A stretch of 64,000 nt of DNA from Anaerolineales bacterium (lineage in GTDB: Bacteria > Chloroflexota > Anaerolineae > Anaerolineales > Villigracilaceae), in contig JABTTV010000001.1 in the NCBI GenBank assembly GCA_015075725.1, forward strand, positions 4,579,223-4,643,222, written 5' to 3'. Made by a program: the position numbers and the translations under genes. Below, piece after piece: positions 1 to 19,465 of the stretch (position 1 is the first letter of the stretch; each line of letters begins with the position of its first letter). The notes under the pieces were generated by a model, which worked only from the letters and a program-made list of their open reading frames with translations, made no database searches and had not been told where the DNA came from.

Positions 1-3000
1 ATAGTTGAAGCCGTAGGTGAACTGGGCGTAGCCGCCCGCCAGCAGGACGGGGTTGATGCGCGTGCGCGTCAGGCTGTTGTGACCGCCCGCGCGCTTGCCT
101 TTGCGAATCTGCGACTTGGGGATGAAGACCGTGCGCTCGACCGCGTGATAGTACAGGCACGTCCCAGGCTGGACGCGGGCGCTGACCGCCGCGCGTGTCA
201 CGACCACGCCGTTGTCGTTGTGGACTTCGACCCAGTCGTTATCCACAATGCCGACGCTTTCGGCTTCCTTGTCGTTCAACCAGACGGGATCCATGCCGCG
301 CGAGAGGGTCAACATGCGGTGGTTGTCCTTGTAGGTCGAGTGGATGTTCCACTTGCCGTGCGGCGTGATGTAGTTCAGGATCAGGCTCTTATCGTCCACG
401 GGGCTGTTCACGATGTCGCCGATCTTCTTCCAGTCGCCAGGCTTCGAGACCAGTTTGGGTTTGAACGTCGGCAGGTTTTCGCCGAAGTCCATGTAATACG
501 GATGGTCAATGTAGAAGTGCTGGCGTCCCGTCAACGTGCGCCAGGGGACGCGCCGCTCCACGCTCAGGCACCAGGCGGAATACGCGCGCCCGTCGTTGAC
601 TATGCCCGACCAGCACGGGCTGATGAGCGTGCGGCGCACCTGTCGCGTCAGATCGTAGAAGGTCATGCGCACGTCGCGCACGCCTTCGGCGAGATCCGCC
701 AGCGGCATTCCGACTCGTTCTTCCTCATGCTTGAACGCCGCGTAGGAGACTTCTCCGTTCGTTTCGGGCGCAAGGAAGAGCAGGACGTTTGCCGCGTCAA
801 GCGCGTCTTCCACCGACGGATATTTGTTCCCGCCCCATTCCACGCATCGCATGTGACGCGGGTCGGGCGAACCGCCGACGGGATTCTTCAGCAGGTCGTC
901 GTAGAACTTCGCCACGTGGATTTGCACGCCGTTGCCGTTGATTCCGTCCGTGCGGATGTTGGGTCCCAGCGAGATGAACTTGTTGTAGAGGTTGGCGTAA
1001 TCGCGCTCCACCACGCGGATGTGCGGCATGGTCTTGCCTGGAATCGGTTCGCACTCGCCCGTTCGCCAGTCCAACACTTCGGCTTGCGAAAGTTCGTCGG
1101 GCGTGTCGTGCATGAGCGGACCCGTCACCACGTCCTTGAGCGGAGTCGGGAAGATATCGGGCGCCATTTCGCTGACTTTCCTGGCGAAGGCTTTGAAGAT
1201 TTCCCAGTCCGTCTTTGACTCCCACACGGGCGGCACAGCCTGCCCGAGCGGATGGACGAAGGAATGAAGGTCGGTGGTGTTCAGGTCGTTCTTCTCGTAC
1301 CAGAACGCGGCGGGCAGGACGATGTCCGAATACAACGCGGACGAGTCCATGCGGAAGTTGAGGTCAACCACGAGATCCATTTTGCCGCGCGGCGCGGGTT
1401 CGCGGAACTTGACGGTCTTGACCTTGTCCCTGGCGTGTTCCTCCGCGATGATGTTATCGTGCGTGCCGAGATAGTGACGCAGGAAGAACTCGTGTCCCTT
1501 CGCGCTGGATTGAATGGCGTTGCCGCGCCAGATGACCCACACCCGTGGCCAGTTCTCTTCCGCGTCGGGGTCGTCCACCGAGAATTCGAGTTTGCCGTCC
1601 TTGAGTTGTTGCGCCGTCCACTTGGAGAAATCTTCGGCGGTCTTCGCGCCCGCGGCTTCGGCGCCCTTCGCCACTTCAAACGAGTTGGTCTTGAACTGCG
1701 GGAAGTACGGCATCCAGCCCATGCGGACAGCCATCGCTTCCAAGTCCATCGCGTGACCCTTCGCCCATTTCGTCTTGGGCGGGATGGGCGCGTAATCGGT
1801 GAAGTCGCCTTCGTAGCGCCACTGGTCGCTGTTGACGTAATGCCACGTGGGGGATTGCTGTCGGCGCGGCGGCTTCTGCCAGTCGAGCGCGAACGCGAGA
1901 CTCGACCACGGCGCGACCAGAGTCAGTTTTTCCTGACCGACGTAATGGTTCATCCCGCCGCCGTTGACTCCGCAACAGCCGCACAGGATCAACGCGTATA
2001 TCGGCGCGCGATAAACGAGATTGTTGTTGTACCAGTGATTGATACTCGCGCCGATGATGATCATGGACTTGCCGTTTGTCGCTTCGGCGTTGGAGGCGAA
2101 CTCGCGCGCCAGGCGGATGATCGTGTCGCGCCCAATGCCCGTGTAGGATTCCTGCCACGCGGGCGTATACGCGCCGACTTCGTCGTAACTCTGCGGGTAA
2201 TCGCCAGGCAGTCCGCGGCTCACGCCAAACTGGGCGGCGACCAGATCGAAGACGGTCGTGACGAGTTTCTTCCCGCCTTCGGTCTCGATGTATTTCGCGG
2301 GGACGCCGCGCATGGCGGTGACTTTCTCCGCGAACTCGTAGAACGCGACGTTGACCGTCTCATCCTGCGAACCGAGAAATGAAAGCGTCGGCTCGATGGG
2401 CTGGTCATCCAACCCGTCTTCCATCTTGATATTCCACTTGCCTTGTTCCTTGCTCCAGCGGTCGCCCACCGCGCCTTTCGGCATTCGCGGCGCGTTCGCC
2501 TTCGCGTCGTGGACAAGGAATTTCCAATCGCCGTTCTCCACGTCCTTGTAACGCTTGACCGTGTTGGCGCGGATGTAACGTCCCGCCTTGTAGCCGTCGC
2601 CGTCCTTCTCCAATTCGATCAGGAACGGCATGTCGGTGTTTTCTTTCAAGTAGTTGATGAAGTACGGGACTTGCCGATCCGTGTAATATTCCTTGATGAT
2701 GACGTGATTGACCGCCATCCAGATCGCCGTATCCTGCCCCGCCTTGACGGGGATCCACCAATCGGAATATTTCGCCACCTGAGAGAAGTCTGGCGCGATG
2801 ACGACGAACTTCGCGCCCTCATGCCGCGCTTCTGAAACAAAGTGAACGTCGGGCGTGCGCGTCATGTTCAGGTTCGCGCCCATCGAGACGATGTACTTGC
2901 TGTTGTACCAGTCCGCGCTTTCGCACACGTCGGTCTGGTCGCCCCAGATTTCGGGGAAGGCGTTCGGCAGGTCGGCGTACCAGTCGTAGAAACTCATGTT

Positions 3001-3588
3001 CACGCCGCCGAACAGTTGCAGGAAGCGCGAGCCTGCTCCGTACGAAAGATACGACATCGCGGGAATCGGCGAGAAGCCGAAGACGCGGTCGGGACCGTAC
3101 TTCCGCGCGGTGTAGATCATCGAAGCGGCGACGATCTCCAATACTTCGTCCCAGTTCGTGCGGCGGAATCCGCCTTTGCCGCGCGCCTTCTGGATGCGCT
3201 TGCGCTTCGACTCGTCTTCCATGATGGAAGCGTACGCGTCCACGGGATGAAGATGTTTCTGCTTCGCTTCGCGCCAGTAGTCCAGCAACACGCCGCGCGC
3301 GTACGGATACTTGACGCGGATCGGGCTGTAGACGTACCACGACGCCGAAATCCCGCGCTGACATCCGCGCGGCTCGTAGGGCGGCAGACCGTCCTGCAAC
3401 AGCGGATAATCCACCTGTTGCATTTCCCAGGTGATAATGCCGTCCTTGACATAAACCTGCCACGAACATCCGCCCGTGCAGTTCACCCCATGCGTACTGC
3501 GGACGATGTTATCGTGCTGCCAGCGGTTGCGATAGAACTCCTCCCACTGGCGGGCTTGCGGGTTGACCAAATCCTGAATCCAACTCAT
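1..3588 (-). CDS. narG: Respiratory nitrate reductase alpha subunit, 3' end beyond window
   Basis: Catalytic molybdenum subunit that reduces nitrate to nitrite. 1196 codons are visible, open to the left edge with no stop. The N-terminus carries the Nar-type 4Fe-4S signature [11 protein letters not shown] (His, Cys, Cys at about residues 34-42), followed by EPRGCQRG. The Mo-ligand region reads [18 protein letters not shown], with the expected Asp after Tyr-Ala. A later block reads [19 protein letters not shown], and the last visible residues ([12 protein letters not shown]) match the normal C-terminal region, so only a few dozen residues are missing. There is no obvious twin-arginine signal, so a cytoplasm-facing enzyme is likely. 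narHJI would be expected beyond position 1. The nitrite-oxidising NxrA form of the same family cannot be excluded from sequence alone, but the neighbouring NO reductase genes favour nitrate reduction. Confidence 0.95.
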
Positions 3589-3608
3589 GTTAGGTGCCTC
3601 CGTTGTTG

Positions 3609-3684
3609 CCCTCATCCCCAGCCCTTCCCCCGAAGGGGGAAGGGAGTTCCCCTCTCCCTTTGGGAGAGGGGTTAGGGGTGAGGG
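3609..3684. repeat. Three-way palindromic repeat between cytochrome c gene and narG
   Basis: Two perfect 10-bp hairpins lie side by side: 3622-3631 with 3635-3644 (loop GAA) and 3649-3658 with 3662-3671 (loop TTT). They are enclosed by an imperfect outer stem (about 3610-3621 with 3673-3684), giving a cloverleaf-like fold. It fills most of the 102-bp gap between the cytochrome c stop and the narG start. It looks like a dispersed palindromic element rather than a terminator because no U-run follows. It may act as an mRNA stability or attenuation structure. Confidence 0.8.
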
Positions 3685-3690
3685 AATGTA

Positions 3691-4548
3691 TTATTTCTTC
3701 GCCAACGTCCGTTCGATCATCGGTACTCTCACGCCCTTCGAGCGTTTGCCCCAGGTCAACTGCGCGAGGAAGATCAATACCGCCGCGCCGACCGCGCTCA
3801 ACAAAGCGATCTGCAACAACGCGCTCGGCTCGCGCTTCGTCACCGAAGCCTTGCTCAGGAAGGCGTACAAATCCGCCTGCTCCTGCGCCGTCAGCGGAGT
3901 CTTCACCCAGATCGCGCCCATCGTCTGCGTGGACGGCGCGCCCATGAACGCCGCGAATGCCGCATCCGATTGGACAAAGCCGCTCGTCGTCAGGTCGGGA
4001 CCCAAATTGCCGCCGCCGAGAGAACCGAGTCCCGCCACGCTGTGACAGGACATGCACTGCGGACCGCCGTTCTCGAAGCGTTTATCGCCCACAAAGTAGG
4101 CTTTGCCCGAGGTCGCGTCCCCCGCTGGAAGTCCCGCCGAAGAGCCGCCCGACGTCGCGCCGCCGCCCAAATACGCGATCAACGCCGCCACCTCATCGGG
4201 CTTCAATCCCAAATTCGGCATCGGGACGTTGTTATATTGCGCCAGCATCGCCTGGGCGTCGGGGTCGCTTGTCAACATCTGGTCGGGCGCGGTCAACCAC
4301 TGGGTCAGCCATTCCTCCGTGCGGCGTTCAGTCACGCCCGCAAGGTCGGGACCCACCAAATCGCCGCCGCCGATCGTGTGACAGGCGTTACACCCCTTCG
4401 CCGTGAACAATGCCTCCCCGTCCGTCTGAAGCGGCGGCATGGCGGAGGCAACGCTGAACGTGGTTGCAATGAAAATCAACGCCGCCCCCAACATCAAAGG
4501 CAGGGAAAAACGCCTGAGCATGGCGGCAGGCTTTCTGTTATCGCTCAT
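3691..4548 (-). CDS. Membrane-anchored diheme cytochrome c (NarC-like)
   Basis: Electron-transfer protein, 285 aa. The N-terminal signal/anchor helix spans about residues 14-36. The first cytochrome c domain has CNACH (C53, C56, H57) and a likely axial Met in NVPMPNLGL (M110). The second has CMSCH (C165, C168, H169). A C-terminal helix at about 241-265 is followed by a basic tail, so both domains should be outside the cell and tethered. In Thermus-type nar operons a diheme cytochrome (NarC) precedes narG, and this gene order is the same. It starts 3 bp after the stop of the upstream receiver gene, so the two are almost certainly cotranscribed. The electron partner is inferred, not shown. Confidence 0.88.
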   Translation of the reverse strand: MSDNRKPAAMLRRFSLPLMLGAALIFIATTFSVASAMPPLQTDGEALFTAKGCNACHTIGGGDLVGPDLAGVTERRTEEWLTQWLTAPDQMLTSDPDAQAMLAQYNNVPMPNLGLKPDEVAALIAYLGGGATSGGSSAGLPAGDATSGKAYFVGDKRFENGGPQCMSCHSVAGLGSLGGGNLGPDLTTSGFVQSDAAFAAFMGAPSTQTMGAIWVKTPLTAQEQADLYAFLSKASVTKREPSALLQIALLSAVGAAVLIFLAQLTWGKRSKGVRVPMIERTLAKK

Positions 4549-5146: not shown

Positions 5147-5803
5147 TCACACCAGCCCCTTGCTCTTCGCCACCTTTGCCGCTTCCCTTCTCGACGAGAC
5201 CTGCAATTTGGAGAGGATGTTCCGTATGTGCGTCTTGACCGTGTTCAGGCTGATGGTCAATGCCTCTGCGATCTCCTTGTCGGTCGCGCCCTCCGCCACC
5301 TTCAACAAGACCTGCTGCTCGCGTTCGGTCAAGCCGCTGTCGTCATCCGTGTTCACAATCCCATGTTTGCTCAGGCGGCGGAACTCTCCCAGCACGCGCC
5401 CAGCCAAAGCAGGGGAAAGAGCCGCCTCGTTCTGCATCGCGCCGCGCAGCATTGCCAGCATTTCCTGAGAACGAATCTCTTTGAGCAAATATCCCTGCGC
5501 GCCGTTCTTCAAGGCCTCGAAGAGTTTTTCATCGTCGTCCCGCACCGTCAGCATGACGATGGTCGTCTCGGGCAAAACCTGCTTGATCTGACGCGCCGCA
5601 TCCAAGCCGTCCGTGCCTGGCATTTGCACATCCATCAGGATCAAATCGGGTTTGAGTTCCTGCGCCTTGACAAACGCCTCCAGCCCGTCGTTCGCCTCGC
5701 CCACCACTTCCATGTCGGGCTGCGAAGCGATGATCCCCGCCAGCCCCTCGCGGAACAGGGCATGATCATCCGCCAGCATAACGCGCATTCGACCCATTCT
5801 CAT
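5147..5803 (-). CDS. NarL/LuxR-family response regulator
   Basis: 218 aa. Receiver domain at about 6-125 with the acidic pair ADDH (11-13), phosphoacceptor D58 in LILMDVQMPG and the conserved Lys in YLLKE. A LuxR-type helix-turn-helix lies at about 150-212 (LTEREQQVLLKVAEGATDKE, then LNTVKTHIRNILSKL). The start was chosen at 5803 because its ATG overlaps the stop of the kinase gene in an ATGA arrangement, which implies translational coupling. In-frame ATGs at 5797 and 5788 are alternatives. Next to a NarX-like kinase and nitrate/NO respiration genes, it probably activates these operons in response to nitrate or nitrite. Confidence 0.93.
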   Translation of the reverse strand: MRMGRMRVMLADDHALFREGLAGIIASQPDMEVVGEANDGLEAFVKAQELKPDLILMDVQMPGTDGLDAARQIKQVLPETTIVMLTVRDDDEKLFEALKNGAQGYLLKEIRSQEMLAMLRGAMQNEAALSPALAGRVLGEFRRLSKHGIVNTDDDSGLTEREQQVLLKVAEGATDKEIAEALTISLNTVKTHIRNILSKLQVSSRREAAKVAKSKGLV

Positions 5804-7716
5804 TCTCTCGTTTCCATTGCCCACGTCAACGTGACGCGCGTTCCGCGTCCCTGTTCCGATTCGACTTTCACTTGTCCGCCAATGTGTTCCGCGCGCGCCT
5901 GCATGATCTTCAAACCGAAATGCCCGTTCGGTTCGGGCTGTGATGTATCGAAGCCTTTGCCATCGTCCTCGACCGCGACAAAATAATGACCGTCGTTCTT
6001 TCCCATCCGCACGACAGCCTGACTTGCATCGGCGTGATGGGCGATATTCTTCAACGCCTCGCGCGCGACCTTCAGTACCTGCTCTGCGACCTGGCGCGAA
6101 CACCTGGGCGACGCCTCCGCGTTCCACGCAACACGCAAACGACCCTTCCCGAATTCATTCACCGAGGACTGCAATTTCCCGCGCAAATCAATCTCGGACG
6201 GTGACGTTTCGTCAATCAGGTTGTTGATGGCGTGCCTCACGTCGCCCGCCGCCTTTTCGATCGTCTCGCGAGTCTTGCGCAAACGTTCGAGCGCGGTCTC
6301 ATCCTGCCCGCCCGATAAGAACTCCATCGTCTGGTCGGTCATCAAACCGAGATAGCTGAGCGTCTGTCCCAGCCCGTCGTGCATCTCCGCCGCCACACGC
6401 TGGCGTTCCTCCAGCGTAGCCACGCGCTCCGCCTGCGCGTACAGTTGCGCATTTTGCAGGGCGATGGCGGCGGTGTTGGCTAACTTCGTCAGCATGTCCG
6501 CCGACTCGCTTGTGAAATGATCCGTTGTGGAACTGCTCACGCACAACGCGCCGATCACCCTGTCGCCGATTCGCAATGGCGCAACCGCGTGGCTGGCGGC
6601 GTGCGTTTCCGTCAGCAAGCCGCACCCGCCGACGCATTGCGCATTACTGCAAATCAACGCTCGCGGACTGGTCAACACCGCGCTGGCTTGGTTCACCGTG
6701 GACATGCGATCCGTCGTTTCGATGGAGGGAATGCCGCTGATGGATTTGAGCAATAAATCTTGTTTTGTTTCATCCAACAGGCAAAGCATGGCAGAGTCTC
6801 CGTTCAATAACATGCGCGCTTTATCGGTCACGGAATTCAGCACATACTTCACATCCAATTGAGAGGCGATCTCGCGGCTGACTTCGTTCAGCGCGTCGAG
6901 TTCGCGCGTGCGCTGCGCGACGCGCTCCTCGAGCGTGGACAGCACCTCCAGCAATTCGGATCGCGACGCGCGCAGGCTTTTCCGCATCGAATCGAACGAC
7001 TCAGACAACCTCCGCATCTCTTCTGGACCTTCGACCTGCACCGCGCTATCGAGATCGTTTTCCCCCAAGCGGTTCGCCGCCCGCGACAATTCCCTCAACG
7101 GTTCCAGCGCGGATTTGCGCGTGACCCAAGCCCCGACGCCCAGCAAAACCAACGCGCCGATAAAAAAGCCGATCTGTATCACTCGCAGGCGATTGATCTT
7201 CGCAGTGGAGTCTGCTTCATATAAACGAACCACTTCGTCGGCTTGCGCAACGAGCGTGGAAGATTTTTCTTCTATGGATTGGAGGGTTGAATCAAACGAT
7301 GGATCGTCGCGCGGGGTTTGTTGCAGCATATCGAGCGCGGCGCGGAATTCGCTCCAGGTGAGATCAACTTCATTCAACGCGGAACGAATCCCAGGGTCGC
7401 GTGTGAGCGGGAGGGCGGCATCCGCATCGGAGAGATAGGGAGCCGTTCCGCCATCCAACAGGGCGCGCAGGGTTTGCTCGAAGGTCTGTTCCACTTCCTG
7501 TAACGAAGCATTGATCGTATCTTCCCCCGCGCTCACCTCAAAGGCAAGCCGCGCCATCTGTTGGGTCAACATTCGCTGGCGCCCCGCCAGGTTGATCACC
7601 AGCGCGTCCTGCCTTTGCGTCTCCAACCCCCACATCGTCGCGCCGACCGAAACCAGCACGAGCAGGACAAACGCCGTGAAGAGAAGGGTTAACTTCGATT
7701 GCAGGCTCTTGAACAT
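5800..7716 (-). CDS. NarX-like nitrate-sensing histidine kinase
   Basis: 638 aa from the Met at 7716; an upstream in-frame start at 7782 would add 22 residues without hydrophobic character. Order: first TM helix; extracytoplasmic four-helix sensor with a P-box-like segment (INLAGRQRMLTQQMARL), the region that contacts nitrate in NarX/PilJ-type sensors; second TM; HAMP; coiled coil; GAF domain; HisKA_3 (EERQRVAAEMHDGLGQTLSYLG, phospho-acceptor His in EMHD); HATPase_c (DDGKGFD, GHFGLKIMQARAE). The GAF part contains a Cys cluster, ICSNAQCVGGCG, which could bind a metal or sense redox. The stop overlaps the regulator start. The family and context support nitrate/nitrite sensing; the signal itself is inferred. 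Confidence 0.9.
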   Translation of the reverse strand: MFKSLQSKLTLLFTAFVLLVLVSVGATMWGLETQRQDALVINLAGRQRMLTQQMARLAFEVSAGEDTINASLQEVEQTFEQTLRALLDGGTAPYLSDADAALPLTRDPGIRSALNEVDLTWSEFRAALDMLQQTPRDDPSFDSTLQSIEEKSSTLVAQADEVVRLYEADSTAKINRLRVIQIGFFIGALVLLGVGAWVTRKSALEPLRELSRAANRLGENDLDSAVQVEGPEEMRRLSESFDSMRKSLRASRSELLEVLSTLEERVAQRTRELDALNEVSREIASQLDVKYVLNSVTDKARMLLNGDSAMLCLLDETKQDLLLKSISGIPSIETTDRMSTVNQASAVLTSPRALICSNAQCVGGCGLLTETHAASHAVAPLRIGDRVIGALCVSSSTTDHFTSESADMLTKLANTAAIALQNAQLYAQAERVATLEERQRVAAEMHDGLGQTLSYLGLMTDQTMEFLSGGQDETALERLRKTRETIEKAAGDVRHAINNLIDETSPSEIDLRGKLQSSVNEFGKGRLRVAWNAEASPRCSRQVAEQVLKVAREALKNIAHHADASQAVVRMGKNDGHYFVAVEDDGKGFDTSQPEPNGHFGLKIMQARAEHIGGQVKVESEQGRGTRVTLTWAMETRE

Positions 7717-7791
7717 GTTCAACCATCGTTTGCGGTTTGGACTTGCAGCCGCATGTCCATTATATACCGCGTGTGGTCGCATATTGCGGTT

Positions 7792-8457
7792 TTACCAGAA
7801 CATAAACGATCCCAACATCAAATGATCCACCCATCCCAACCCGGCGAATCCGCGCATGGCGAACTGAAAGCCGAAGGTCATCATTATAAGTGCAGCGAGT
7901 CCGCGCGACCAGAGGCGGGAGATGGATTTTGCCGCCAGCCATTTGACGGCGACGAGGCTGGGGAGGGTGGCGATGCCGAAGACCAGCATGGTCAACCCGC
8001 CGAGCAGCGCGAATTTGGAAGCAGCCGCGGTAATGAGGGCGGTCAGGACCAAGCCGCAGGGTAGCAGTCCCCAAAGGAGGCCGAGCAGGTACGGGCTTAG
8101 GAGCGAAGCGGGTTTATATCCGCGTATCCATTTTCCCCAAAGTTGAATCCAGTTCGAAAACAGAAGTTCGGGAGAGGGAGTTAATCCGATGAATGCGGAT
8201 GCCATGTAGAAGGCGAGGATCGCGAAAAGGATGGAAAGCATCGCTTGCAGGTTTCCATACGACCAGAGGGTCTGACCGAACAGGCCGAAAACCATGCCAA
8301 GCGCGGAATAAGTCGTAAGACGACCCAGATGAGCAAGGAACCACGCAAATTTATTCTGAAAGGCGGGCTGCCGGTCGAAGAGAAAAACGATCGCGGAACA
8401 CATCCCCACACAGTGACCGAGACTGCCGAGCAAACCAAGAAGAAAGGATGCGATCAT
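7792..8457 (-). CDS. Sulfite exporter TauE/SafE-family (DsbD_2-like) membrane protein
   Basis: About 221 aa, six predicted TM helices, beginning MIASFLLGLLGSLGHCVGMC. The GHCxGMC motif in helix 1 and the LPCGLV motif in a later helix are the paired Cys motifs of this family, members of which are often found beside heme-copper oxidase genes and are linked to copper or cytochrome maturation. An in-frame Met at 8562 would overlap the oxidase gene and place the 8477-8508 hairpin inside the coding region; 8457 follows a GGTGAG and is preferred, but the start is uncertain. Likely role: maturation of the upstream oxidase-like complex, inferred from context. Confidence 0.8.
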   Translation of the reverse strand: MIASFLLGLLGSLGHCVGMCSAIVFLFDRQPAFQNKFAWFLAHLGRLTTYSALGMVFGLFGQTLWSYGNLQAMLSILFAILAFYMASAFIGLTPSPELLFSNWIQLWGKWIRGYKPASLLSPYLLGLLWGLLPCGLVLTALITAAASKFALLGGLTMLVFGIATLPSLVAVKWLAAKSISRLWSRGLAALIMMTFGFQFAMRGFAGLGWVDHLMLGSFMFW

Positions 8458-8476
8458 CTCACCGGTAAATTTTTTT

Positions 8477-8508
8477 GGACTTCGTCCCGTTTTGGCAGGA
8501 CGAAGTCC
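8477..8508. repeat. Perfect 11-bp inverted repeat
   Basis: GGACTTCGTCC at 8477-8487 is mirrored at 8498-8508 around a 10-nt loop, in the gap between the oxidase subunit I stop and the SafE-like start. On the coding strand it is followed by A-rich rather than U-rich sequence, so it is not a classical terminator. It may be a dispersed palindrome or a processing site that sets different expression of the two genes. Confidence 0.7.
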
Positions 8509-8528
8509 TTTCAAAAGGAGAAACGCCG

Positions 8529-10256
8529 TTAGCGAATAAACCAGGTGCGGCCCAAAAGCCACCAGTTCGTGAGGTAATAAACTGCGAACCAGACGAGGAA
8601 GGCGAAGACGAGAACCAATGTGCCTTTGGGTTGGTTTTGTTTGTCTTCCATCTGATGGTCGGTGAGTTTGGTGGATTCGAGCAGAGGATTGTCGTTACCA
8701 GCCACGAGAAGCATATTGGTGGCTTCTTTGCGCTCACCGGTGAGAATGGAGACCAGCACGATGGTTACGTACATGATGCCGCCGGTTACCGCGATCAACG
8801 CGCCGATGCCGAAAATGGCAAGCGTGAGGTCTACCGTGCCAGGAACGACCCCCGCGAAAGTGATATCCCAATTGCGGCGGGACACGCCCTGCAAGCCGCT
8901 GGTGATCATGCCCAAAGAAACGAGAGCCGAGCCGACGCCATATACATAGGGCTGCCAGACCGCCCATTTCTTAAGTTTGAGTTCTTTGCGGAAGATGAGC
9001 GGGATGACATAGTACGTGAATGCCATGAACGCTGTGGTGGTACCGCCGACAACCGTGGCATGGAAATGACCGGGCAGGCGCAGCGTGTTGTGCGCAAGCA
9101 TATTGATCTGTTCGGTGCCGATGGTCACACCGGTGACGCCGCCGATCCAGCCGAAGAGGATCATGGACACGACCAAGCCGGAAAAGCCCGGCTCATTCCA
9201 CGGACCGTTGCGGAGCCAGCCAAACAAACCTTTATTGTGCCCCTTGGCGCGCAGGGCAATTTCCATCGCGGCGGGAATCGAGAAGGCGTGCATCATGGAA
9301 CCGAGAACGGCGAGATACATGGCATAGGATGTGTTTACAGCCTTCCACGCAAAGGAAAGGCCGGGGTCAACCAGGAGGTGATGAGCCGAACCAAGATTGA
9401 TGAAGAACAGATACAGGATAAAGGCGAGGCGCGAGAATTTCTCATTCACCGGGCGGATGCCGACGGTCATTTGCGCGAGCATGTACCAGATGGCGACCAT
9501 CGCCGCAAGATTAACCTGCTGGGCGGGATGCCCAAATCCCCAGAAGAAGTTGCGGTAAATGCCGGGGTCGTAGACGGGGAACACGTCGAGCGACCATAAA
9601 AAGGCGGGCACGATCGCGACCGCGCCTTCGAGTAGGGTATAGACGGCAAGAATCGCAGCGGTCATCAAACCGAATACAGCCAGCGGCAGGGAACCTTCGA
9701 AACGCTTTTCGCGTTTTGCAACGACGAGGTTGATGAAAAAGGTGATGACCTGGATCAACGCGCCAACGGCGAAGAGGATGTAACTCAGGTAGAACAAGGG
9801 ATGCGCCTTGAGCGGCACATAGGCGGTGAACGTAACAGTGGATTTCGGGTCGAACAGCACGACGCCATTGGCAAGCAAACCGCCGATAGTCATCAGACCC
9901 CAGCCGAACCAGGCAAGTTTGGGGGCGGCGTGGCGCGCATTCAATAACGCGGTGGAACCGAACGCCAGCCCGGCCATTTCAAAGAAGACGATCCATGCCA
10001 CGAGCATATCAATGCCGTGCAGGGTCAATAAACGGTAGAACCAGGTCGCATCCAGCAGGTGGACGGCCTGCCAGCGTGTGAGGGCGATCAAAAGCGCAGC
10101 GATGCCGCCGAGGACGAGACAGACGACAGCCATCACCGCGTTGGCGATGATAAGGCGTTCGGCATGCATATCCACTTTGAGGGTGGTGACGCCGCAGACC
10201 CGGTAATCGTCCTTTGTGCCAGCCATCCATGGATTTGTGGGAGCAAGTGCGGTCAT
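8529..10256 (-). CDS. Heme-copper oxidase-superfamily subunit I lacking active-site Tyr; probable nitric oxide reductase
   Basis: 575 aa, about 13-14 TM helices. Ligands visible: low-spin heme H80 (LHGIDMLVAW) and H399; high-spin heme H397 (LPGHFHATVVGG); CuB H243, H292 and H293 (GHPAQQVN; SAHHLLVDPG). In oxygen reductases of the B (ba3) family the CuB-His is followed four residues later by the cross-linked Tyr (GHPxVY). Here that position is Gln247 and no Tyr replaces it. The rest aligns well with ba3-type enzymes (HHLLVDPG, HNTxRLPGHFH, GVSRRNW). Loss of this Tyr is a hallmark of NO reductases in the superfamily; the so-called eNOR clade, related to the B family and reported from Chloroflexota, has a CuA subunit II and fits best. 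Cotranscribed with subunit II (10-bp gap). Confidence 0.88.
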   Translation of the reverse strand: MTALAPTNPWMAGTKDDYRVCGVTTLKVDMHAERLIIANAVMAVVCLVLGGIAALLIALTRWQAVHLLDATWFYRLLTLHGIDMLVAWIVFFEMAGLAFGSTALLNARHAAPKLAWFGWGLMTIGGLLANGVVLFDPKSTVTFTAYVPLKAHPLFYLSYILFAVGALIQVITFFINLVVAKREKRFEGSLPLAVFGLMTAAILAVYTLLEGAVAIVPAFLWSLDVFPVYDPGIYRNFFWGFGHPAQQVNLAAMVAIWYMLAQMTVGIRPVNEKFSRLAFILYLFFINLGSAHHLLVDPGLSFAWKAVNTSYAMYLAVLGSMMHAFSIPAAMEIALRAKGHNKGLFGWLRNGPWNEPGFSGLVVSMILFGWIGGVTGVTIGTEQINMLAHNTLRLPGHFHATVVGGTTTAFMAFTYYVIPLIFRKELKLKKWAVWQPYVYGVGSALVSLGMITSGLQGVSRRNWDITFAGVVPGTVDLTLAIFGIGALIAVTGGIMYVTIVLVSILTGERKEATNMLLVAGNDNPLLESTKLTDHQMEDKQNQPKGTLVLVFAFLVWFAVYYLTNWWLLGRTWFIR

Positions 10257-10266
10257 TTCATATCTC

Positions 10267-10797
10267 CTATTTCACGATAATCTTGCCAATCATGGTGTGA
10301 TGGCCGAGCGAGCAGAATTCATTGCAGACGATTGTGAATTCACCCGTCGTGGTCGGAACGATGGTCGCCACGTAATCGTAGCCGGGCAGGATCTGCAAGT
10401 TGATGTTGACCGGCTGGAGCGAGAAACCGTGTTGAAGATCCATTGAGGATATATGCAGGCGGTAGGTTTCGCCTTTTTGGAATTGTAAAATGGGGTACCA
10501 CTGCCAGGTGCTGGCGCGCAGATACACGTCACTGCCGGGAGGCGCTTCTACAACGGGCAGGGTCACGCCGTTGACGGTCTCCTCACCCACTTTGTATTGT
10601 TCGGTGAAGGCAAGCATGGTCTCATTGAATTGCGCAGGCGTGGTTCGATAAGTTTCAGTGGGCACGTTCTGCTTGCCCATGAAATACCAGAGCGGCATCA
10701 TCACAGTAAGGAACACGCACCAAACGAACGCGACGGTAAGCCAGGTCTTTTCATGGCGACCCATGGGTTTCCACCAGAGTTTTTCGGGGGCTAACAT
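10267..10797 (-). CDS. Oxidase/NO reductase subunit II with intact CuA site
   Basis: 176 aa. One N-terminal TM helix (about 19-40) then an extracytoplasmic cupredoxin domain. The CuA ligands are complete: His in MDLQHGFSLQP, then CNEFCSLGHHTMIG giving Cys, backbone-ligand Glu, Cys, His and Met in the canonical C-x3-C-x3-H-x2-M spacing. It should therefore accept electrons from a soluble cytochrome c or a cupredoxin, as in oxidases, rather than contain a cytochrome c domain as in cNOR. The start has an AAGGAG Shine-Dalgarno about 9 nt upstream. Second gene of the operon. Confidence 0.93.
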   Translation of the reverse strand: MLAPEKLWWKPMGRHEKTWLTVAFVWCVFLTVMMPLWYFMGKQNVPTETYRTTPAQFNETMLAFTEQYKVGEETVNGVTLPVVEAPPGSDVYLRASTWQWYPILQFQKGETYRLHISSMDLQHGFSLQPVNINLQILPGYDYVATIVPTTTGEFTIVCNEFCSLGHHTMIGKIIVK

Positions 10798-10816
10798 TGG
10801 TTATCTTCTCCTTTAC

Positions 10817-10975
10817 CTATGGCGCAGGGGGAACGTTCATAAGGTCAATGATTCCCCAGGCATTGTAGATGACCCCGCTGATCAACAGCGAGAGCAGGAA
10901 CAACAGCCAGATGTTGTCGAACACAGCCTGCCATTTGAAGGCTTCTTTCTCTTCCGGGTTTTCTTTCTGGGTCAT
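10817..10975 (-). CDS. Small single-helix subunit of the oxidase/NO reductase
   Basis: 52 aa with one TM helix (IWLLFLLSLLISGVIYNAWG) and a charged N-terminus. The start at 10975 has a strong AAGGAG 6 nt upstream; a longer reading from 11008 is less likely. Size and position as first gene of the operon recall the one-helix subunit IIa of ba3-type oxidases, but the sequence is too short to assign by motif. First cistron of the transcription unit running at least to 7792. Confidence 0.8.
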   Translation of the reverse strand: MTQKENPEEKEAFKWQAVFDNIWLLFLLSLLISGVIYNAWGIIDLMNVPPAP

Positions 10976-11009: not shown

Positions 11010-11220
11010 ATGATTATCGGAATATGTACTTATTATTGCATACGGAGAAATTACACGCTGTGATTTTTGTTACATATCTGGGATGATCTTCCTTACTATT
11101 TCCCCCAATTAAGACCGGATTTATCGCCTCGACCCCGCTCATGCCTATCCCTCCCCATTTGATTCTTCCTTCGCCTCGACCTTTTACACATCCCTCAATG
11201 CAAGAATAAGAGCAAACATA
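11010..11220. other. Intergenic region, no gene seen
   Basis: Upstream region of the NO reductase operon and downstream region of tRNA-Gln. A/T-rich near the operon (ATAATAAGTACATATT-like stretch at about 11015-11040, a plausible promoter area). No coding potential, repeat or RNA recognised. Confidence 0.6.
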
Positions 11221-16254: not shown

Positions 16255-17433
16255 TCACGCAGGTTCGTATTTTTTCAAACCGGATTGGACGATAACGAAA
16301 AGTTCCTTCAATGGCGGAATCAATGCCAGGGCGTAGAAAGCGAAGCCAACTCCGTAGATCAGTCCTCTTGCCGGGATGATAAAAATACTCACCCAAACGA
16401 GGATACTGCCAACCGTCGCAGAAACCAGACTCAGCCACGAGCCGCCCAGCGCGGGATTCGCGTCCTTAAGGAAGAATCGCCGTGCAATGTATGGGATGAG
16501 CGCGATGCCAAATTGCAGAACCCAGCCATAAATCAAAGCTTGCGGCGCGGTCGATTCGACAGGTCCGCCCTCGATGACGTGAAGAAGGATCAAAGGGGCG
16601 ATCATGACCGGGAGCAATATCCATAGGTAAGACAAGACCAGATGCCATCCGCCTGCGAGATTCAATTTTCCGCTTTCTCTCAGCGCGCGAATCATCAAGA
16701 CCACCAGCCAGATCGTGGACGAAAGATGGAGGACCAATCCTGTTACCGTTGGAGGCAGGCTGCCGCCGAGCCAGGGTCCCAGGACGAGCCCGAACGCACC
16801 GAGGGCCATGCCCCAAAAGATGTAATTGATCGCAGATTTTCCGCCCAGCGGTTTGCCTGTGATCATCGGGATGAAATCCACGAGAAGGCCGGCGAACACG
16901 AGCGACATGAAACCCCACGAATTTGCATGAATATGAGCTTCGAGCGGCACTTTTATGTAAAGGGCTTCACTCCAGTTGAGGAACAAACCTGTCCCGATGA
17001 TGATGCCTACGAGCAAATAGAAAATACCCGTAATGTAGAATTTTAGGCTTGCAGGCGCATCGCCACCCCGAATCCTCCACAATTGCAGGAGCAATAACAA
17101 CGCGGCGATGAAGATGAGCGTTCCGCCTGTAAAGATAATGGGGTGATTCATCCCGGCAAAACCTGCGACCAGCGCGATCAGACCTGCATTGAGGGTCAGC
17201 CATATGTCCCAACGCATGGCGGGTTTTTCCTTATTTGAAAGCGACGCAACGAGAACTGGCAGCAGTCCAAAGATGGCCTGCGAGATAATTCCAAGCGTGA
17301 TGAAGTGGACGCGCACCCAACGCAAAGCCGGAAACGCGCTAAAGACGCTCATACTGACGAGGGAGGCGTCCGCTGCCGCAAACAAGGCGACAAAAATGTA
17401 GAGCAAAACAGTGAGTAAATACGGGATTGGCAT
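16255..17433 (-). CDS. Polytopic membrane protein with His-rich helices, heme-copper-oxidase-like fold suspected
   Basis: 392 aa, about 12 TM helices. The start at 17433 has AAAGGAG 6 nt upstream. Histidines sit at helix ends in RVHFITLGIISQ, EAHIHANSWGFMSLVFAG, VLHLSSTIW and LLHVIEGG. Such a pattern (H near the start of a helix followed by an aromatic/small-residue run, plus HxH) recalls b-type heme-binding helices of oxidase subunit I-like or NnrS-like proteins, but I cannot place it in a named family. It is the last gene of an operon with cytochrome b561 and a Crp/Fnr regulator, which fits a role in electron transfer or NO/heme handling. Confidence 0.7.
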   Translation of the reverse strand: MPIPYLLTVLLYIFVALFAAADASLVSMSVFSAFPALRWVRVHFITLGIISQAIFGLLPVLVASLSNKEKPAMRWDIWLTLNAGLIALVAGFAGMNHPIIFTGGTLIFIAALLLLLQLWRIRGGDAPASLKFYITGIFYLLVGIIIGTGLFLNWSEALYIKVPLEAHIHANSWGFMSLVFAGLLVDFIPMITGKPLGGKSAINYIFWGMALGAFGLVLGPWLGGSLPPTVTGLVLHLSSTIWLVVLMIRALRESGKLNLAGGWHLVLSYLWILLPVMIAPLILLHVIEGGPVESTAPQALIYGWVLQFGIALIPYIARRFFLKDANPALGGSWLSLVSATVGSILVWVSIFIIPARGLIYGVGFAFYALALIPPLKELFVIVQSGLKKYEPA

Positions 17434-17444
17434 TTGTACTCCTT

Positions 17445-17981
17445 TTATTTTCCATACCACATGCGGTTGAAAATGTTATCCTTCAATAGAAACTGATGAT
17501 AGAACGCCGCGCCGACATGCAAAAGCACAAGCAGGAGGAGGGCGGGCGCAATAAAACCATGCAGGAGGCGTGCTGTAAAATTGTAAAAGTCCGCGGGCAG
17601 GGATGCGCCTGAACCGCCAAAAACAATCGGGGGAAGCCCGGCTTGCATGGATAGCGAAAGGCCACTGATGGCAATCAGGAAGACCATCAGGTAAAGCGCA
17701 TAATGCACGAATTTTCCGATCCAATCGAAAACCGCATTCCCCGCCGTGACATGATGCGGTTTGGGCAGTTTTGCCCGCGCCACAAATCGGGCGACAATGA
17801 CCATGAGTGTCAGGATGCCGACAGTCATATGAAAAGCCAATGGGGCAATTTTCGACACATCGTCATTGGGCAGACGGCTCATAAACTTGCCTAGGATGAA
17901 TGCCGTGAGTACGAGCATCACGGTAAGCCAGTGAAATGTAACTTGCAATGGATGGTAACGAACAGCAGTGACTTTTTCCAT
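17445..17981 (-). CDS. Cytochrome b561 family protein
   Basis: 178 aa, four TM helices. His candidates for two b hemes: FHWLTV (H17), FHMTVG (H50), KFVHYALY and LLHVGAAFYH. Bacterial b561 proteins move electrons between quinones and other acceptors or reduce superoxide. The gap to the next gene is only 11 bp, so the two are cotranscribed. Confidence 0.9.
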   Translation of the reverse strand: MEKVTAVRYHPLQVTFHWLTVMLVLTAFILGKFMSRLPNDDVSKIAPLAFHMTVGILTLMVIVARFVARAKLPKPHHVTAGNAVFDWIGKFVHYALYLMVFLIAISGLSLSMQAGLPPIVFGGSGASLPADFYNFTARLLHGFIAPALLLLVLLHVGAAFYHQFLLKDNIFNRMWYGK

Positions 17982-18373: not shown

Positions 18374-18694
18374 TCATTCTCCTCCTTTCGCGCCGAGAAA
18401 AATCACGCGTGTCCTCGCGTTCATGCCGCGTCTCGCTCCGGCAGGCGCGATGACAGTCACGCCGGGCTTGATATCGAACGCTTCATCCTCGACCGTGATC
18501 AATCCCGCACCTTCGATAAAGTAATACAACGCCGCCTCACCGGCATGCATGGGGATTTGCCCGCCAGCTTCAAGTCCGACCACCAGGGTCTTGAACTTGG
18601 GCGTATCGATCAAAAACTGCGGCTTGGGACCATCCGCTGAAAATACGGCATTGGATTTTATATCTGCAAAATAGATTTGATGTGGCTCTGGCAT
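18374..18694 (-). CDS. Small cupin-domain protein
   Basis: 106 aa, a single cupin barrel. Motif 1 region reads IPMHAGEAALYYFIEGAG; motif 2 lies in PGVTVIAPAGARRGMNA. Only one of the usual metal-binding His is obvious (H51 in PMHAGE), so metal binding may be partial. Between a Crp/Fnr regulator and membrane redox genes; substrate unknown. Confidence 0.8.
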   Translation of the reverse strand: MPEPHQIYFADIKSNAVFSADGPKPQFLIDTPKFKTLVVGLEAGGQIPMHAGEAALYYFIEGAGLITVEDEAFDIKPGVTVIAPAGARRGMNARTRVIFLGAKGGE

Positions 18695-18793: not shown

Positions 18794-19465
18794 TTAAGCC
18801 CGATCCATCAACCCCGCCCGGTCCAGAATTCGGATCTGCTGTTTATTCATTTCGATCAATCCTGCCTTGGTCAATTCGCGGATAACCCGGCCGAGCACAT
18901 CTGGAACGGTTCCGAGGCGGGCCGCAAGTTCGGTCTGATTCGTCCATCGTCGGCGCTCGATCAAATCCCCTTCGGCTTGATCCAGCAGCAACTGGATGAA
19001 CCGTGCTTCCACGCTCTTCAAGGATAGGTCCGCTGCGAGGGTCACCAGGCTGATGATCTTATCAGCCATGTTCTCGATGATCTGCAAAGCTGAACCTGGA
19101 TGCGCCAGAATTACTTCTTCCAGGGCATGGCGCGGAATCAGCCAGACACCTGACTCTTCCAGGGCAATCGCAGTGGCGGGATTTGCCTTTTTCGCAAGCA
19201 CGCCCACTTCATTGAATATCTCCCCTTCAGTAATAAATCTCAGTACCTGCTCGCGCCCGTCGGGCGATGCTTTCAACACTTTCAATGAGCCGTATTGCAG
19301 ATAAAACAGGTTCGACTCGACCTCTCCCTCCCAAAAAAGAACCTCATTAGGGGCGTAAACCTTCCAGGTGGAGCTCTCTGCCAGCCTTTTCAGGGTCTCG
19401 AAATCCAGACCGCGCAGGAAATCGAAACTTTGCAATCTTTTGAATAGAATCGCTTTATCTGCCAT
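18794..19465 (-). CDS. Crp/Fnr-family transcription regulator
   Basis: 223 aa. cNMP-binding-type beta-roll (about 18-135) followed by a dimer helix and a winged helix (TNQTELAARLGTVPDVLGRVIRELTKAGLIE). No N-terminal Cys cluster, so not an Fe-S FNR; a DNR/CooA-like heme sensor or ligand-binding type is possible. First gene of the operon with cupin, 4-TM, b561 and 12-TM proteins. Divergent from the ABC exporter leader, with about 40 bp between its start and the -35 of that promoter, so it could also influence it. Confidence 0.9.
   Translation of the reverse strand: MADKAILFKRLQSFDFLRGLDFETLKRLAESSTWKVYAPNEVLFWEGEVESNLFYLQYGSLKVLKASPDGREQVLRFITEGEIFNEVGVLAKKANPATAIALEESGVWLIPRHALEEVILAHPGSALQIIENMADKIISLVTLAADLSLKSVEARFIQLLLDQAEGDLIERRRWTNQTELAARLGTVPDVLGRVIRELTKAGLIEMNKQQIRILDRAGLMDRA

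Follow-up and report, generated by a model that had tools for sequence, protein, structure and literature searches.

A probable eNOR-type, CuA-containing nitric oxide reductase operon close to nitrate reductase genes in an Anaerolineales genome

Organization of the locus

The stretch of DNA analysed here (the window; 64 kb) comes from a 4.79 Mb Chloroflexota genome assembled in four contigs (G000), and the genes of interest are all encoded on its minus strand. An initial sequence-only reading had located a heme-copper oxidase operon at positions 8529–10975, and these coordinates are correct, although the range also holds an additional ORF of 52 codons. This ORF (10820–10975) is the first gene of the operon and encodes a single-helix membrane peptide that resembles the small subunit of ba3-type operons; a homologue lies 5′ of subunit II in nearly all of the Anaerolineales loci. 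It is followed by the gene for the 176-residue subunit II, with an intact CuA site (10267–10797), and immediately afterwards by that for subunit I (8529–10256), a 575-residue protein of eNOR type marked by six metal-ligand histidines, Gln247 and His323. Next is a gene encoding a DsbD_2-family membrane protein (7792–8562; PF13386, E-value 1.8e-37), for which the GTG start given in the ORF list probably lies upstream of the real one. Homologues of this protein are present at 43 of the loci scanned, and its role is probably in assembling the oxidase-like complex or in its copper/redox maturation.

The same strand continues with a NarX/NarQ-type nitrate/nitrite sensor kinase containing PilJ, HAMP, GAF and HisKA_3 domains (5800–7782) and a NarL-type response regulator (5147–5809), which scores 175 bits against the NarL model, below the curated cut-off of 250, and which starts near 5809 within an ORF that reaches 6127. 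Beyond these come a small ORF that resembles a receiver domain, a c-type cytochrome that is anchored in the membrane and has two CxxCH sites (3691–4548; PF00034) and narG, encoding the nitrate reductase catalytic subunit (1–3615; TIGR01580, 1480 bits, cut-off 1084), all co-directional. The association of the operon with nitrate reductase and a NarX/NarL pair, which had been claimed at the outset, is thus borne out. The cytochrome is a candidate for the electron donor to CuA or for a part of the Nar complex. narG extends 72 nt past the left edge of the window (full gene, L048:13152–16838) and narH is situated further left; a 1077-residue secreted NHL-repeat-like protein (L048:9244–12477) is inserted between narG and narH in this nar cluster.

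A putative CRP/FNR-type palindrome, TGTGATTTTTGTTACA, is present at 11059–11074, some 85 nt before the first gene of the operon. It is one of four matches to TGT[GA]A-N6-T[CT]ACA in the 64 kb, the others being at 4377, 48626 and 52328. Boxes of similar form are found upstream of the eNOR operon in most relatives, a recurrence that may be due in part to the relatedness of the upstream regions themselves.

We also note a 401-residue multi-helix membrane protein (16255–17460, minus strand) that contains the motif LEAHIHANSWGF and has no match in Pfam or NCBIfam. Its neighbours are a cytochrome b561 (17445–17981), a cupin-like ORF (18374–18694) and a CRP/FNR regulator (18794–19465), and homologues of the membrane protein, the b561 and the regulator are found near the eNOR operon at locus L005. 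An identification as NnrS was ruled out, there being no match to PF05940 even at an E-value of 10.

Subunits I and II

Subunit I matches Pfam COX1 with an E-value of 5e-63, and its best sequence matches among solved structures are the ba3 chains in the PDB. An AlphaFold model (pLDDT 83, pTM 0.86) has the heme-copper oxidase fold, with Z scores near 36 against enzymes of the A and B families (35–36 for ba3). The residues H80, H243, H292, H293, H397 and H399 align one by one with H72, H233, H282, H283, H384 and H386 of ba3, so that all six metal ligands named in the initial reading are accounted for; the sequence provides for a bis-His low-spin heme, a high-spin heme and a three-His CuB.

The departure from the oxygen reductases lies in helix VI. 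B-family oxygen reductases carry a cross-linked tyrosine here, in the motif GHPxVY, whereas the window protein has GHPAQQ, and Gln247 occupies the position of Tyr237, the cross-linked tyrosine of the Thermus enzyme. This is the correspondence that the sequence-only reading had predicted and had proposed be checked by alignment. A tyrosine hidden by misalignment is ruled out, since the alignment of helix VI contains no gaps and its neighbouring residues change together. Compared with ba3, the changes seen throughout the group of glutamine-bearing proteins are Val236 to Gln246, Tyr237 to Gln247, Trp239 to Asn249, Thr312 to His323 and Tyr244 to Val or Ile (Val254 in the window protein). Retained from the B-family K-path are Tyr258 (ba3 Tyr248), Ser320 (ba3 Ser309), Ser326 and Glu16 of subunit II, the last at the position taken as E15 of ba3 subunit II, and these residual K-path residues are nearly invariant within the group.

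The CuA site of subunit II, described from the start as intact and unlike the situation in cNOR, has its full set of ligands (H123, C158, E160, C162, H166 and M169). Five of these are invariant in 21 subunit II sequences, and E160 is nearly so.

Homologues and phylogeny

When homologues were collected from 84,980 species genomes, 400 Chloroflexota genomes and plasmids, those with approximately 45–95 % identity to subunit I over most of its length all had glutamine at the helix VI position, and the next group, near 30 % identity, consisted of ba3 oxidases with tyrosine. Among 87 aligned sequences the residue is glutamine in all 61 homologues and tyrosine in all 26 ba3 oxidases, with no intermediates. 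The glutamine homologues span several phyla; the close relatives are 79–95 % identical over the full length, the nearest named one (95 %) being from a Candidatus Villigracilaceae metagenome-assembled genome. Since all 61 homologues have it and come from independent assemblies, Gln247 is neither a chance substitution nor a sequencing error.

In a tree of 60 sequences, which took in no Rhodothermus or Natronomonas eNOR references and no published, biochemically characterised eNOR, the window protein and 33 other glutamine sequences, that of L125 among them, form a single clade apart from the oxygen reductases with support of 100/100, in line with the initial reading. A haloarchaeal eNOR reference was sought among the plasmids, and the five haloarchaeal matches examined there all have tyrosine. 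Two Thermus thermophilus plasmids encode eNOR-like subunits I (L102:8983–10668 and L103:6025–7707) with GHFK in place of GHFH in helix X, such that lysine replaces the second ligand of the low-spin heme (ba3 H386, H399 in the window); these are the sole exceptions among the 61.

Assignment to the eNOR family

The eNOR family was reportedly described by Hemp and Gennis in 2008. Other nitric oxide reductases of the superfamily can be set aside by their active-site residues. gNOR has aspartate at the tyrosine position and is ruled out by Gln247. cNOR and qNOR likewise reduce NO at a heme/non-heme metal site within a heme-copper-superfamily fold, but they have an active-site glutamate, a heme c or fused quinol subunit and no CuA, and are ruled out both by the residue and by the CuA subunit II. 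bNOR/CuANOR of Bacillus azotoformans is, like the enzyme proposed here, a CuA-type NO reductase derived from the B family, but it and sNOR have asparagine at this position (PMC8756737, Table A4) and are similarly ruled out.

The eNOR enzymes are defined by glutamine in place of the tyrosine and have been reported in Anaerolineales, where their genes are often misannotated as cytochrome oxidase (PMC8756737); in a passage of PMC11388526 that cites Murali et al. 2024 they are counted among the biochemically characterised NORs. The window operon shares with them the glutamine, a B-family-like subunit I with its six histidines, a CuA cupredoxin subunit II encoded immediately upstream and its occurrence in Anaerolineales, and it may also have the single proton path that is predicted for them. 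We found no defining difference from eNOR in general, the feature particular to this locus being the co-directional narG and NarXL-type pair. The ba3 enzymes, both that of Thermus thermophilus and that encoded elsewhere in the same genome, have in common with it the fold, the six ligands, the CuA site and much of the K-path. Taken with the single glutamine clade and the nitrite reductase associations described below, the replacement of Tyr237 by Gln247 favours the original assignment: the operon very probably encodes an eNOR, that is, a nitric oxide reductase that contains CuA and descends from the oxygen reductases of the B family, with an NO reductase activity predicted from sequence. As eNOR in Anaerolineales has already been published, the operon is an unremarkable representative of a family that is known and under-annotated.

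Gene neighbourhoods and nitrogen oxide metabolism

In most Anaerolineales relatives the usual order is small subunit, subunit II, subunit I, DsbD_2, P-type ATPase and cytochrome b/ferredoxin. A NarXL pair is directly upstream of the enzyme at four loci (L020, L023, L024 and L026). Among the loci scanned, narG is beside the enzyme only in the window's own genome and its linkage to eNOR is therefore local. More distant members of the clade have nirK directly upstream (L125) or nirS adjacent (L042), and the former arrangement fits that of Ardenticatena maritima, in which eNOR is in an operon with nirK (PMC4653789). On plasmid L102 the enzyme lies beside genes for a NirK-like multicopper oxidase, Rrf2 and RIC/ScdA_N, and at L100 beside a hemerythrin gene.

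The glutamine enzyme is carried by 29 of the 400 Chloroflexota genomes. nirK or nirS is present in 22 of these carriers and in 42 of the 371 non-carriers (Fisher p 7e-14, from counts that ignore relatedness), and 12 of the 15 carrier genera have a nir gene; seven carriers show neither nirK nor nirS. As a control, nir genes were found in 7 of the 31 genomes that have ba3 without the glutamine enzyme.

G000 itself encodes three COX1 proteins only, namely an aa3 (C1:2868674), a ba3 with the motif GHPLVY (C1:552824), adjoined by bd-type genes, and the window eNOR; no cNOR/qNOR (NorB-like) protein was found among the three. Both the aa3 and the ba3 keep the tyrosine, so O2 reduction is covered by other enzymes. 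Elsewhere the genome also has, next to each other, nirK (317 bits, curated cut-off 296) and nirS (415 bits), the latter with two cytochrome c parts, and no G000 protein reached the cut-off for NosZ. From the presence of Nar, NirK, NirS and eNOR we infer a capacity to reduce nitrate as far as N2O.

At L128:6233–10235, one strand carries adjacent nirK and nirS genes. The nirK product has 593 aa and includes a cupredoxin part at its N terminus, the nirS product has 677 aa and includes cytochrome c parts, and the L128 genome thus holds both NO-forming nitrite reductases. In G000, two stretches of contig C1 (approximately 2546800–2568300 and 3383800–3405200), 837 kb apart, give paired CuA- and NirK-like matches with partly identical scores, which suggests either a large duplication or a repeat in the assembly.

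Alternative explanations

The cbb3 oxidases obtain their active-site tyrosine from helix VII, and an oxygen reductase that has lost the helix VI tyrosine and draws its radical from another one must be considered. The sequence-only reading saw no substitute tyrosine. Tyr311 in helix VIII, which is invariant in the 61 glutamine-clade sequences and is not conserved in the ba3 clade, may be a functional substitute judging from this pattern, and the fold and ligands match those of oxygen reductases. Yet the top of the K-path (Tyr244, Thr312) has also been rebuilt in the glutamine clade, the association with nirK and nirS is strong and is far weaker for ba3, the genome is already equipped with oxidases of the aa3, ba3 and bd types, and the family is reported as NO reductases in the passage already cited (PMC11388526). 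We regard an oxygen reductase as very improbable. An error of sequencing or assembly, or a decayed oxidase, merits practically no weight: nothing was found in its favour, the frame is open, close relatives maintain their similarity over the full length, and the invariance of the glutamine in all 61 independently assembled homologues rules it out.

The function of an eNOR could differ from that of a respiratory enzyme, in that it might detoxify NO without conserving energy. The NO-stress genes adjoining the enzyme in some relatives (Rrf2, RIC/ScdA_N and hemerythrin) and the altered K-path residues would fit such a role, but here the operon runs in the same direction as the nar genes and those of a nitrate sensor pair, a cytochrome b gene is nearby in most relatives and what remains of the K-path is nearly invariant, and we consider pure detoxification unlikely.

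Proposed reaction and significance

In an eNOR of this kind, electrons would leave the quinol pool through a cytochrome b complex, reach CuA by way of a c-type cytochrome and continue over the low-spin heme to the site formed by heme and CuB. There two NO, two electrons and two protons would yield N2O and H2O. Oxygen reductases split O2 with the help of a tyrosyl radical, and an enzyme with no helix VI tyrosine radical is therefore expected to split O2 poorly. The protons would probably come from the cytoplasm through the modified K-path, in which case the reaction would be electrogenic. A further and rather tentative proposal, one that we think could well be wrong, is that this eNOR lineage conserves energy from NO reduction through a rebuilt K-path with an invariant histidine, His323, in place of the threonine of B-family oxidases, being electrogenic or proton-pumping and tied to nitrate respiration by the nar/NarXL block.

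Standard annotation labels these genes as cytochrome c oxidase, and for this reason the part of Chloroflexota in reducing NO and producing N2O goes unnoticed in wastewater, groundwater and lakes. The combination of Gln246–Gln247, Asn249 and His323 offers a simple rule for separating eNOR from ba3 in genome surveys. NO is toxic and N2O is a greenhouse gas; the genome described here reads as that of a nitrate-to-N2O denitrifier without nosZ, and the organism is a potential source of N2O.
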